The translations under genes were made by a program, and so were the position numbers. Positions 3,584 to 9,378 of a DNA stretch of 10,736 nt are shown here, in pieces. Positions within the stretch are counted from its first letter, which is position 1. Each line of letters begins with the position of its first letter. The stretch lies in NCBI GenBank assembly GCA_022827045.1, contig JAJDTQ010000007.1, positions 1 through 10,736 of the forward strand, in the 5' to 3' direction. Origin of the DNA: Candidatus Binatia bacterium. Its GTDB lineage: Bacteria > Desulfobacterota_B > Binatia > UBA9968 > JAJDTQ01. The notes beneath the pieces were generated by a model, which saw only the letters and a list, made by a program, of their open reading frames with translations, was not told the origin of the DNA and did not search any database.

Positions 3584-3660
3584 TGGTCGGGGCGACTGGA
3601 TTTGAACCAGCGACCACACGCACCCCAAGCGTGTGCGCTACCAGGCTGCGCTACGCCCCG
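3584..3660 (-). tRNA. tRNA-Pro (anticodon GGG), CCA encoded
   Basis: The 77-nt sequence folds as a full cloverleaf. The acceptor stem is CGGGGCG with CGCCCCG, the D stem GCGC/GCGC has loop AGCCTGGTA, the anticodon stem CACGC/GCGTG holds loop TTGGGGT (anticodon GGG), the variable loop is TGGTC, and the T stem GCTGG/CCAGT (one G-U pair) has loop TTCAAAT. The discriminator A is followed by an encoded CCA. GGG decodes CCC and CCU proline codons. It lies between the MerR-family gene and pcm on the same strand, with its own promoter-like sequence upstream. Confidence 0.98.
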
Positions 3661-6934: not shown

Positions 6935-7924
6935 TTAAGGCGGAAACTGTCTCAGAAAACGGACGTCGTTCTGGAAGAACATCCGGATGTCGTCCATCCC
7001 GTACTTCAGCATGGCGATGCGCTCCACGCCCATGCCGAATGCAAAGCCCGAGAAAGTCTCGGTATCGTATCCCACGAAGTCGAACACGTTGGGGTCGATC
7101 ATTCCCGAGCCCAGGATCTCCAGCCATCCCGACCCATGGTACACGTCCACCTCGGCACTGGGCTCGGTGAACGGAAAGAAGCTCGGGCGGAAGCGCACGC
7201 GCACCTTGTCCTGAAAAATCTGCTCCAGGAAATGGGTCAGGACGCCCTTCAGATCGCCGAAGGTGATGTCGTGGTCCACCATGAAGCCTTCCACCTGGTG
7301 GAAGACCGGAGAGTGGGTGGCGTCGTCGTCGTGGCGGTAGACCGCGCCCGGCGCGATGATCCGCAGCGGCGGGCGGCGCTGCTCCATGACGCGGATCTGC
7401 ACCGGCGAGGTATGGGTGCGGAGCACGTGGTCTTCCGACACGAAGAAGGTGTCCTGCATGTCCCGCGCCGGGTGGTCCCTGGGAATGTTGAGGGCCTCGA
7501 AGTTGTGGTAGTCGTCCTCCACGTCCGGCCCGCGGGCGATCTCGAATCCCATGCCGGTGAAGACGTCGATGATCTCGTCGGTGACCCGGGTGAGGGGATG
7601 CACGCGGCCCCGCTCCGGGCGGTTCCCGGGCAGGGTCACGTCCAGACGCGGGCCCCCGTCCGCGAGGGTTGCTTCACTCTCCCGGAGACCCTTCAGCCGG
7701 GCGTCGAGAAGGCCCTCGAGCTCCGCCCGCCGGCGGTTGAGCTCTTGCCCCGCGCGCGGCCGCTCGTCTGCCGGAAGCTCCCGGAGCCCGCGCATCAGCG
7801 CGGTGAGCTTCCCGCCCTTGCGGCCCAGGTAGTCGATGCGGATCTGCTCCAGCTCCTGTTCCGAGGCGCACCGTTCAAGCCGCCCCTCGGCCTCCTCATG
7901 GAGCTTCTCGAGGGCTTCGATCAT
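6935..7924 (-). CDS. pheS: Phenylalanyl-tRNA synthetase alpha subunit
   Basis: The alpha subunit holds the class II active site that activates phenylalanine and charges tRNA-Phe. The 329-residue product has an N-terminal tRNA-binding helical arm (about 1-85, starting MIEALEKLHEEAEGRL), followed by the catalytic core. It carries HPLTRVTDEIIDVFTGMGFE (109-128), RTHTSPVQIRVME (169-181), motif 2 as PGAVYRHDDDATHSPVFHQV (192-211), EPSAEVDV (254-261) and motif 3 as GFAFGMGVERIAMLKYGMDD (293-312). The alanine of FAFGMG, which shapes the phenylalanine pocket, is conserved. The gene starts 15 nt after rplT without a visible Shine-Dalgarno, so translation may depend on coupling to rplT. No Phe-rich leader peptide or attenuator of the E. 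coli pheM type fits in that gap. Confidence 0.97.
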   Translation of the reverse strand: MIEALEKLHEEAEGRLERCASEQELEQIRIDYLGRKGGKLTALMRGLRELPADERPRAGQELNRRRAELEGLLDARLKGLRESEATLADGGPRLDVTLPGNRPERGRVHPLTRVTDEIIDVFTGMGFEIARGPDVEDDYHNFEALNIPRDHPARDMQDTFFVSEDHVLRTHTSPVQIRVMEQRRPPLRIIAPGAVYRHDDDATHSPVFHQVEGFMVDHDITFGDLKGVLTHFLEQIFQDKVRVRFRPSFFPFTEPSAEVDVYHGSGWLEILGSGMIDPNVFDFVGYDTETFSGFAFGMGVERIAMLKYGMDDIRMFFQNDVRFLRQFPP

Positions 7925-7939: not shown

Positions 7940-8335
7940 TCAGGCCCCCGGATCGGGGTCCGGGGCAGGGTTGGCCTGGGAATCGAGGGCAAGCCTGGCG
8001 CACTGGGCGACCTGGTCGAACACCGCGGCGTCCGTGGCCGCGAGATCGGCCAGGATCTTGCGGTCCAGCGCCACGCCGGCCTTCTTCAAGCCGTGGATCA
8101 GCCGGCTGTAGGACAGTCCGTTGACCCGCGCGCCGGCGCTGATGCGTATGTTCCACAATCCCCGGAACGTGCGCTTGCGCACCCGCCGATCCCGGTAGGC
8201 GTAGACCAGTCCGCGCTCGACGGTCTCCCTGGCGACACGGTACAGTCTGCGGCGTCCGCCGACGTACCCCTTGGCCAGTTTCATGTACTTTCTTCGGCGC
8301 CGGCGGGAGGCCGGTCCGCCCTTGACTCTAGGCAT
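7940..8335 (-). CDS. rplT: 50S ribosomal protein bL20
   Basis: bL20 binds 23S rRNA early in large-subunit assembly, and in other bacteria it represses its own operon. The 131-residue product starts [20 protein letters not shown], the expected basic N-terminal extension, and continues with [40 protein letters not shown] and [20 protein letters not shown]. The ATG at 8335 has GAGGAG 9-10 nt upstream; the frame opens 9 codons earlier at a TTG, but that part overlaps the Shine-Dalgarno. bL20 is usually about 115-120 residues; here the end carries a non-canonical tail [14 protein letters not shown] (118-131), rich in Pro and Asp. The gap to rpmI is unusually long (135 nt) and contains hairpins. 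Confidence 0.97.
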
Positions 8336-8470: not shown

Positions 8471-8668
8471 CTACATGTAGGGGATGAGACGTCGCATGGT
8501 CTTCGCTTCGTAGCCCGATACCGACTCGGCCTGTCTCAGGCGGCGTTTCCGCTTGCGGCTCTTGGTGGACAGAATATGGCTCTTGAAGCCGCGCCGCCTC
8601 ATGACCTTGCCGCTCTTGCTGACCTTGAACCTCTTGGCCGCCCCCCTCTTCGTCTTTATCTTGGGCAT
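8471..8668 (-). CDS. rpmI: 50S ribosomal protein bL35
   Basis: The 65-residue, strongly basic protein is bL35 of the large ribosomal subunit. It starts [20 protein letters not shown] and contains [20 protein letters not shown] and [10 protein letters not shown], all typical of the family, at normal length. Translation starts after an AGGA within GACAGGAAAAT, the sequence that is exactly repeated at the infC stop codon on the far side of the inserted palindromic element. The stop codon lies inside a 14-nt palindrome (CCCTACATGTAGGG, 8469-8482), probably by chance. In most bacteria infC and rpmI are close together; here the insertion separates them by 194 nt. Confidence 0.97.
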
Positions 8669-8850
8669 CCTGAATTTTCCTGTCCCTTCTGGTGTCCTGT
8701 CCGGTTAATTCGCATAATGACCTGCTTGTCTTTTTCGCCGTCGGCGGCGTTGCTCTTCCTCGCGTAGTGCCCGCCACTGCTCGTCATCGCGCCTTGCCGA
8801 CGACGAAAAATCCTGCGCATCTCATCATGCCAATTAACCGGACAGGACAC
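8656..8850 (-). CDS. Short ORF carried by the palindromic element (function unknown)
   Basis: A 64-codon frame starts with GTG at the first base of the element's inverted repeat ([15 protein letters not shown]) and crosses the whole element. Near the other end it reads MRINRTGH, encoded by the second inverted repeat, and it ends 13 nt inside rpmI in another frame. An AGGA from the duplicated GACAGGAAAAT lies 7 nt before the GTG, so ribosomes could enter here and pass on to the rpmI start. I recognise no domain. It may be a fortuitous frame in a GC-rich palindrome; I list it for the possible coupling rather than as a confident protein. Confidence 0.2.
8674..8684. repeat. 11-bp direct repeat, copy at the rpmI ribosome-binding site
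   Basis: ATTTTCCTGTC on the plus strand (GACAGGAAAAT on the coding strand) provides the rpmI Shine-Dalgarno. An identical copy lies at 8854-8864, so the pair brackets the palindromic element and may be its target-site duplication. Confidence 0.7.
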
Positions 8851-8853
8851 AGG
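8685..8853. mobile_element. MITE-like palindromic insertion between infC and rpmI
   Basis: The segment between two exact 11-bp direct repeats is 169 bp. It contains perfect 19-bp inverted repeats, GTGTCCTGTCCGGTTAATT at 8692-8710 and its reverse complement at 8832-8850. Further complementary arms lie inside: 8712-8725 with 8817-8830 in blocks, and 8731-8745 with 8796-8810 at 14 of 15 positions. The whole segment could fold into one long hairpin. No transposase gene is present, so it would have to be mobilised in trans, as for a MITE. The direct repeats lie 7 and 3 nt outside the 19-bp repeats; outermost bases CCT and AGG on the coding strand are complementary, with 4 extra bases on one side. 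The family is unknown to me. Confidence 0.65.
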
Positions 8854-8864
8854 ATTTTCCTGTC
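8854..8864. repeat. 11-bp direct repeat, copy at the infC stop codon
   Basis: This exact copy of ATTTTCCTGTC overlaps the infC stop codon (TGA at 8865-8863). If one copy is the original, the ancestral junction would have been infC TGA, then CAGGAAAATTCAGG, then the rpmI ATG, a tight spacing normal for this operon. Confidence 0.7.
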
Positions 8865-9378
8865 ATGCGTTGCTCTTCGGCGTCAGCAGCATGGCCATGT
8901 TCCGCCCTTCCAGCTTGGGCGACACGTCCAGCTTCGCCAGATCCTGGACTTCGTCAAAGACGCCGTTGAGCATGGCCCTGCCTAGCTCCGGATGGGTGAT
9001 CTCGCGGCCTCGGAAGAACACCGACACCTTGACTCGCTGTCCCCGCTCAAGGAAGCGCCGGATGTTTCTCACCTTGAACTCCAAGTCGTGGTGGTTGGTC
9101 CGGGCTCCCATCTTGACTTCCTTGACCGCGACAAAGGTGGCGTTCCGTTTCGCCTCCTGTGTCTTCTTCTTCTGCAGGTAGCGGAACTTGCCGTAGTCCA
9201 GCAGGCGGCACACCGGAGGCTGTGCGTCCGGGGCAACTTCCACCAGATCGAGCTCCTTCTGCTCGGCTATGCTCAGGGCTTCATGCAAGGGCATGACTCC
9301 GAGCTGGCCGCTGTCCGCGTCGATGACGCGGACCTCCCGTGCCCGTATCTGCTGGTTGATTCTCGTGGGCCGCGCTAT
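8863..9378 (-). CDS. infC: Translation initiation factor IF-3, probable AUA start
   Basis: IF3 binds the 30S subunit, prevents premature 50S joining and checks the start codon and initiator tRNA. An ATG at 9294 would remove the conserved N-terminus. Upstream codons in the same frame read ARPTRINQQIRAREVRVIDA, which matches the IF3 N-terminal domain. An in-frame TAG at 9397-9399 closes the frame, and between that stop and this block there is no ATG, GTG or TTG. The only well-placed codon is ATA at 9378, 6 nt after AGGAGG. That gives 171 residues, normal for IF3. The N domain holds EVAPDAQPPVCRLLDYGKFR, a lysine-rich linker (QKKKTQEAKR) follows, and the C domain contains MGARTNHHDLEFKVRNIRRF and KVSVFFRGRE. 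It starts 37 nt after thrS. Rare start codons are known for infC and support autoregulation. Confidence 0.93.
   Translation of the reverse strand: MARPTRINQQIRAREVRVIDADSGQLGVMPLHEALSIAEQKELDLVEVAPDAQPPVCRLLDYGKFRYLQKKKTQEAKRNATFVAVKEVKMGARTNHHDLEFKVRNIRRFLERGQRVKVSVFFRGREITHPELGRAMLNGVFDEVQDLAKLDVSPKLEGRNMAMLLTPKSNA

Follow-up and report, generated by a model that had tools for sequence, protein, structure and literature searches.

The 10,736-nucleotide stretch of a Candidatus Binatia contig analysed here (the window) carries a 159-bp palindrome between infC and rpmI. This segment is very probably an old, decaying copy of a non-autonomous MITE family of a Binatia clade, of the IS630 type with a TA target, which arrived by the route set out below. 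Copies of the family are dispersed over many sites with defined ends and TA flanks, combine one core with several types of arm, and often overlap stop codons; the corresponding junctions of relatives are free of the element. One copy of the family has settled even within an essential translation operon.

The Element in the infC-rpmI Junction

The element occupies positions 8692..8850 on the plus strand, in the orientation of the family core, with the flanking genes on the minus strand; full-length matches of up to 94% identity are found in five Binatia genomes. It consists of a left arm of 30 nt (8692..8721), a core of 101 bp (8722..8822) that is nearly constant among the copies found, and a right arm of 28 nt (8823..8850), all read on the plus strand. 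The outer 19 nt of the left arm, GTGTCCTGTCCGGTTAATT, are perfect: as the original prediction had it, exact 19-bp inverted repeats lie at 8692-8710 and 8832-8850, and the further complementary inner arms it described extend these repeats to 34-nt arms with 88% complementarity. The near end-to-end folding that it proposed was borne out against a background of 200 dinucleotide shuffles for the DNA (z = -9.0) and for the gene-strand RNA (-99.7 kcal/mol, z = -11.2); none of the 200 shuffles was equally stable in either case.

The segment had been given as 169 bp with uncertain ends. The lengths of other two-armed copies correct this to 159 bp, and comparison across the family sets both ends to the base. 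The arm-to-arm span of 15 other two-armed copies (first loci) is 159 bp in nine, 160 bp in one and 180-262 bp in five. Being short (159 bp), transposase-free and bounded by terminal inverted repeats with 19-bp perfect ends, the element has the features of the bacterial MITE class.

Gaps of 7 and 3 nt do separate the arms from a pair of direct repeats, as described, and are best read as host sequence. The spacer on the rpmI side (8685..8691, plus strand) reads CAGAAGG on the minus strand; its counterparts in element-free junctions are TAGAAGG in G001 (RHO3_bin_65) and GAGAAGG in G002 (RHO1_bin_74). Judging from these two junctions, the TA target would be expected here, where the sequence is now CA. 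No TA target is visible in the probable host spacer on the infC side (8851..8853, plus strand). The flanks of the window copy are TG and AG, which makes it one of 4 copies among 107 with TA on neither side, and its own target duplication is therefore not visible.

All three genes around the insertion lie on the minus strand. The infC gene (IF3; 8863..9294) is open over 143 aa and 93-99% identical to those of nine close relatives; rpmI (bL35; 8471..8668) is open over 65 aa and retains the sequence before its start, with the purine-rich tract ahead of the start kept; rplT (bL20; 7940..8335), the next gene of the operon, has its start placed at MPRVK. The insertion leaves the infC stop and the sequence before the rpmI start in place, and for this reason is probably tolerated. 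Its sole predicted effect is probably a 159-nt hairpin in the infC-rpmI mRNA, and the window copy appears to do nothing essential.

A Dispersed Family in Binatia

The view of the segment as a MITE-like insertion gained support from many dispersed copies with shared ends, without a transposase gene inside, and from the empty site in relatives. The search for dispersed copies yielded 107 unique copies at different sites, several with arms of the window type. An arm-pattern scan of genome contigs returned 25 stretches, 22 of them in MAGs of Binatia/'Deltaproteobacteria' and 3 in gammaproteobacterial MAGs. The PheS protein of the window is 96% identical to those of G001 and G002 (residues 1-261), 95% to that of G007 (APA_bin_73; residues 114-328, with a second G007 contig at 87% over 1-159), 89% to that of G004 (OX638375.1, 4.21 Mb), 87% to that of G003 (jk18x27bins.63) and 50-54% to those of the gammaproteobacterial MAGs, which places the window among the Binatia. 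The host clade is apparently sponge-associated, as the names of isolates and the literature on sponge-dwelling Binatota indicate.

The element matches all eight genomes searched, at no fewer than 38-54 places in each of five Binatia genomes (scoring was limited to 40 candidates in each). A local scan of 400 kb of G004 (L096-L115), a region chosen with its seven matches already known and not an unbiased sample, found the same seven places as the genome search, one of them partial, and no more. Since the local scan added no places, it suggests that the 49 element matches in G004 are near the true number. Of 35 genomes of the order, 9 contain the 101-bp core, and the other 26 gave no core match at E <= 0.001 (at most 25 candidates scored each).

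The 179 core hits were reduced to 107 unique copies with 80-nt flanks by removing 44 duplicates, 25 partial cores and 3 hits truncated at the end of a locus; all 107 were found via the core and not via the arms. Nine Binatia genomes contribute 105 of these copies (G004, 33; G001, 28; G013, 11; G007, 9; G002, 9; G003, 6; G011, 5; G010, 2; G012, 2), the window contributes one, and the remaining copy, L048, is in the gammaproteobacterial G005. We infer from these sequences that the family is mobile.

All three gammaproteobacterial genomes among the eight searched match the element, the match in G006 being weak (best 1.3e-5). Four distinct G008 elements of 158-159 bp (L039, L047, L054/L070 and L061) have their outer arms and parts of the core in common with the window, and within the order of G008 a match to one of these elements was seen in at least 11 of 147 genomes, in several over short stretches only (5 candidates per genome scored). 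In a sample of the phylum, the window's arm with at most two mismatches was found in one genome of 297, G004 itself, and in none outside the clade. This patchy presence in two phyla would fit horizontal spread. A distant-mode search of a plasmid collection with the element and its flanks gave 61 records, all of which cover less than 80% of the query, with the best 20 of the 61 at E >= 0.05; the inner arm pattern had no matches in viral contigs. Rfam, at the gathering threshold, holds no family for the element, and its only match in the window is a tRNA (such repeats need not be in Rfam).

Ends and Target Site

Arms of 30 and 28 nt are found in 101 of the 107 copies. TA flanks the element on both sides in 87 copies and on at least one side in 103, mostly in the arrangement CTA/GTG...CAC/TAG (slashes mark the element ends), so that a target-site duplication is present in the family. 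C precedes the left TA position in 81/107 copies, and G follows the right one in 96/107. Matching arms, defined by up to 5 mismatches in 22, occur in 98 copies, 84 of which are TA/TA. The target duplication of the family is TA (2 bp) and not CTAG (4 bp), because 21 of these 84 copies are without the outer C..G pair and their element ends are still G..C; an IS5-like duplication of 4-bp CTAG was rejected on this count.

Element-Free Junctions and Alternative Origins

The infC-rpmI junction is without the element in all 11 relatives of the order that were compared (G001-G004, G007 and G009-G014), and the nine close relatives among these all carry the core elsewhere. In these nine, manual counting on the junctions gives a spacer of 21-37 nt downstream of the infC stop, with 34 nt in G002, G004, G007 and G013 and 30 nt in G001. 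The original prediction read two 11-bp direct repeats, at 8674..8684 (plus strand, in the region before the rpmI start) and 8854..8864 (plus strand, overlapping the infC stop codon), as a target-site duplication. The repeats exist, are exact and lie 180 nt apart, and IS4-type elements make target duplications of this length; an insertion by an IS4-like transposase with an 11-bp duplication is nevertheless extremely improbable. The repeats do not abut the ends of the element, as a long target duplication of that type would, and the family duplicates TA, seen on both sides in 87/107 copies. Removal of the 169-bp segment and one repeat, which had been said to restore the ancestral junction, leaves 14 nt, unlike the spacers of all nine close relatives. 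Removal of the 159 bp and one TA copy gives 34 nt if the loss of a single A on the infC side is assumed. The insertion thus did not leave the 11-bp repeat as its footprint. GACAGGA also occurs twice in the G001 junction, which has no element. The most fitting reading of this repeat is a pair of purine-rich tracts that resemble each other, one being the stop context of infC and the other the ribosome-binding region of rpmI.

The stability of the RNA fold (z = -11.2) and the position within a co-directional essential operon could also be those of a co-opted hairpin, a former MITE now kept to adjust how much IF3 is made relative to bL35/bL20, for instance through mRNA processing or broken coupling; ERIC elements of Yersinia provide a precedent, with an effect on mRNA stability according to the account in PMC2229807. 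We consider this improbable, as the hairpin is absent from 11/11 relatives, both TA flanks and some of the arm pairs have decayed, and the sequence ahead of the rpmI start is preserved. A fixed regulatory structure, which the original prediction set against an insertion, would be conserved at this site in relatives and occur nowhere else; the opposite was seen, the palindrome being absent at the site and dispersed elsewhere. An alternative compatible with the MITE reading is that the insertion is older than the window lineage and that G001 lost its copy through a deletion between GACAGGA motifs in the infC-side flank and arm, with GACAGGACAC followed by TAG as the scar. The 30-nt spacer of G001 indeed contains the last 10 nt of the element and then TAG, and it is shorter than the 34 nt of G002, G004, G007, G013 and the inferred window site. 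However, the G001 sequence TGACAGGACACTAGAAGGG could also be a native CTAG target. Identity by segment is 96.2-98.3% between G001 and G002, compared to 94.3-96.0% between G001 and the window and 94.0-96.2% between G002 and the window, which speaks somewhat against a scar: with the window the more distant of the three, either G002 would have to have lost the element as well or recombination would have to have acted locally. We therefore regard this older date as conceivable but rather unlikely.

For the preferred reading, a decaying IS630-type MITE, we propose that an IS630 transposase acting in trans recognised the matching arms of about 29 bp, and that the element entered a TA in the infC-rpmI spacer of roughly 34 nt and duplicated this TA. 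Both copies of the TA and some of the symmetry between the arms would have been lost through later changes; the decayed flanks and arms of the window copy are as expected for an old passenger. Within the family, arms would change together on the near-constant core, some types coming to resemble the ends of different IS630 lineages, and the choice of CTAG targets together with the fixed terminal G would place many copies in TAG stops with the protein unchanged.

Constant Core and Changing Arms

The two arms of a copy differ on average at 1.7 of 22 positions, whereas arms of different copies differ at 7.4 (107 copies). For the 88 copies with a 101-bp core, the mean pairwise difference is 8.5% in the core compared to 35% in the left arm, and the core difference is still 9.9% among the 1877 pairs with an arm difference above 40%. 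The core of the family is nearly constant while both arms of about 29 bp change together; this constancy is partly ascertained, since the copies were found through the core. Average-linkage clustering of the 98 matching-arm copies gave nine arm types, a number that depends on our cut-off of 7.5 mismatches in 22, with 56, 12, 9, 8, 7, 3, 1, 1 and 1 members; five types are present in G004 alone.

These 98 copies include 77 distinct ones of 159 nt, in which arm pairs 1-22 are complementary in 94-100%, a figure raised by the omission of the nine unlike-arm copies from the count. At least two Watson-Crick types, with at least three copies each, are found at 23 of the 30 outermost arm pairs, compared to 1 of 30 pairs in the core. 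Mismatched positions of the core are fixed too, for example 38/122 in all 77 copies. Identical cores (95 columns) can carry unlike arms, as in L045 (G007, type 1) and L180 (G011, type 6). The core of the window is nearest to that of L133 (G001, type 6 arms; 98% over 95 columns), and L007 (G004), which has the same type 1 arms as the window, is almost as near by tree path. The core tree was built on 95 columns and is weakly supported, with one starred branch. Placing the seven counted arm groups on it takes 25 changes, against a least number of 6 and a shuffled mean of 48.9, with 0/200 shuffles as low; arm types are thus clustered as well as intermingled. Arm type 5 forms one side of a branch of this tree.

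Arms differing at six or more of 22 positions are found in 9 of the 107 copies. Two different recognised arm types occur in L053/L148, L059 and L215, and also in L065/L021, there with 5 mismatches; the left end of L135 and L152 is unrecognised, and L139, L184, L227 and L048 look decayed or misplaced by our end-finder. Misassembly was considered, because clear chimeras occur only in fragmented MAGs (G001, G003). The best case, and a single one, is L215, as both of its flanks are contiguous with a G002 site without the element. The G002 copy in the set L131/L143/L121 (G001:C30, G002:C88, G001:C149) is similar to one G001 copy in its left flank and to a different G001 copy in its right flank, a pattern that points to either recombination between copies or misassembly at copies.

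Template switching is described as homogenising the arms of inverted repeats (abstract-level account in PMC8604942) and as maintaining hairpins (likewise PMC8794818), and may have made the arms change together in this family. Tentatively, the core could be seen as a parasite that swaps its ends: one arm would be exchanged by recombination, template switching would copy it across, successive IS630 lineages would be ridden, and landing in TAG stops would be nearly cost-free. In the usual view, a MITE relies on the transposase of a single parent and ceases to move when that is gone. A near-constant middle with jointly differing ends, some of which match different IS630 lineages, suggests a way to outlive the parent element.

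IS630 Elements as Candidate Parents

Pfam DDE_3 frames are present in 4/8 genomes, above the cut-off in three; the proteins of G003 and G007 exceed it. We placed the ends of IS630 elements with our own search for facing TA-flanked repeats, which succeeded at four of eight loci examined, and found no ends within 500 nt at L248, L249, L250 and L256. The whole elements of the order each lie between CTA and TAG (CTA/GTGT...TAG): 1143 bp in G003 (ends GTGTCCCGTCCCATTTAAT and GTGTCCTGTCCCATATAATTC), 1127 bp in G007 (ends GTGTTGCGTTTC; this element adjoins a MITE copy at a shared CTAG), 1189 bp in G013 and 1156 bp in G028. An IS630 element (L093) and an IS630 remnant (L199) each abut a MITE copy with which they share one CTAG, and the edge of an element can therefore serve as a landing site.

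Over 26 nt, the best MITE arms have 2 mismatches to the right and 5 to the left end of the G003 element (both type 8), 5 and 6 to the ends of the G007 element (type 9), 5 to an IS630 remnant in G011 (type 9), and 6 to the right (type 5) and 8 to the left end (type 8) of the G013 element. Shuffled IS630 ends compared with the MITE arms had means of 12.5-13.9 and minima of 7-9 mismatches. For the right end of G003, 300 shuffles averaged 12.5 mismatches and never fell below 7, compared to the 2 observed; for the left end of G013, the best MITE arm did not surpass the best shuffle.

An IS630 with arms of the window type was not found, the four placed elements (G003, G007, G013, G028) differing from it at 8-14 of 23 nt. 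A search of 256 loci for facing window-type arms 700-2500 bp apart returned four pairs, one place being counted twice; the arms at L021/L065 and L120, though not evidently those at L023, start and end in separate neighbouring MITE copies. G004, with its 49 element matches, gave no match to either IS630 protein query and contains only two DDE_3 frames, of 178 aa and with other ends.

Insertions at Stop Codons

Gene positions were taken from our codon-score script and not from annotation (the script miscalled the window's own neighbours, and its table of orientations was left out of account). Among the 91 copies that have 600-nt flanks, these calls put one entirely within an open frame, 34 across a frame end with an overlap of more than 10 nt and 56 between genes, with 91% of the G004 400 kb called coding. 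In 50 of the 91 copies, the target TA and the terminal G of the element form the TAG stop of the adjoining coding frame, and in 7 they do so on both sides. Of the 115 CTAG sites in the G004 400 kb, 22 coincide with gene stops, 51 fall within genes and 42 lie between them. Copies at TAG stops thus make up 55%, compared to 19% of all CTAG sites and 34% of those outside gene interiors, where the background comes from the 400 kb of G004 only and the copies from several genomes. Insertions at TAG would spare the gene, because the target TA and the first G of the element rebuild the stop. The position at stop codons offers a simple, testable reason for the build-up of copies by the dozen in gene-dense genomes. 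Among the titles and abstract openings listed for open-licence PMC text, none mentions such placement, which may nevertheless be in print.

TAG is the stop of 123 of the 321 genes called in the G004 400 kb. CTAG is about tenfold rarer there than base composition predicts (115 sites seen, about 1187 expected).

Comparison with Known Elements

IS630 itself prefers CTAG, and IS630 insertion sequences resemble the Binatia element in their TA duplication in a CTAG context and their GTGT ends; they differ in that the Binatia element has 159 bp and no transposase gene. Going by their descriptions, the closest parallels are small repeats of other bacteria. RUP of pneumococcus (107 bp, 108 copies), proposed to be moved by IS630-Spn1, is likewise a small intergenic element without a transposase, with a TA target and ends like those of a resident IS630, as summarised in PMC2229807. 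In contrast to RUP, the Binatia family is 159 bp long and has longer arms, many arm types on one core and many copies at TAG stops. Correia/NEMIS and ERIC elements share TA at the termini, long stem-loop transcripts and a dispersed occurrence as small repeats, but are described from other hosts and with arms of 24 bp and 7 bp (summary in PMC2229807). MITEPsy1 of Pseudomonas syringae is a 100-nt MITE with CTAG or YTAA as target; according to the description in PMC3189936, its ends are related to ISPsy2 of the IS5 family and its duplication is 4 nt, whereas the Binatia family has a TA duplication and IS630-like ends.

Other Features of the Window

The PheS protein of the window (pheS, 6935-7924, with the break near 7145) is without a segment of 14-16 residues that bears two CxxC pairs (IGCILCR...CRVCR) and is present in five aligned relatives between PSAEVD and GSGW. 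This gap looks as if an essential enzyme had lost a zinc-binding loop, the role of zinc being suggested by the motif. The only tRNA found in the window is a tRNA-Pro (GGG) at 3584-3660 on the minus strand.
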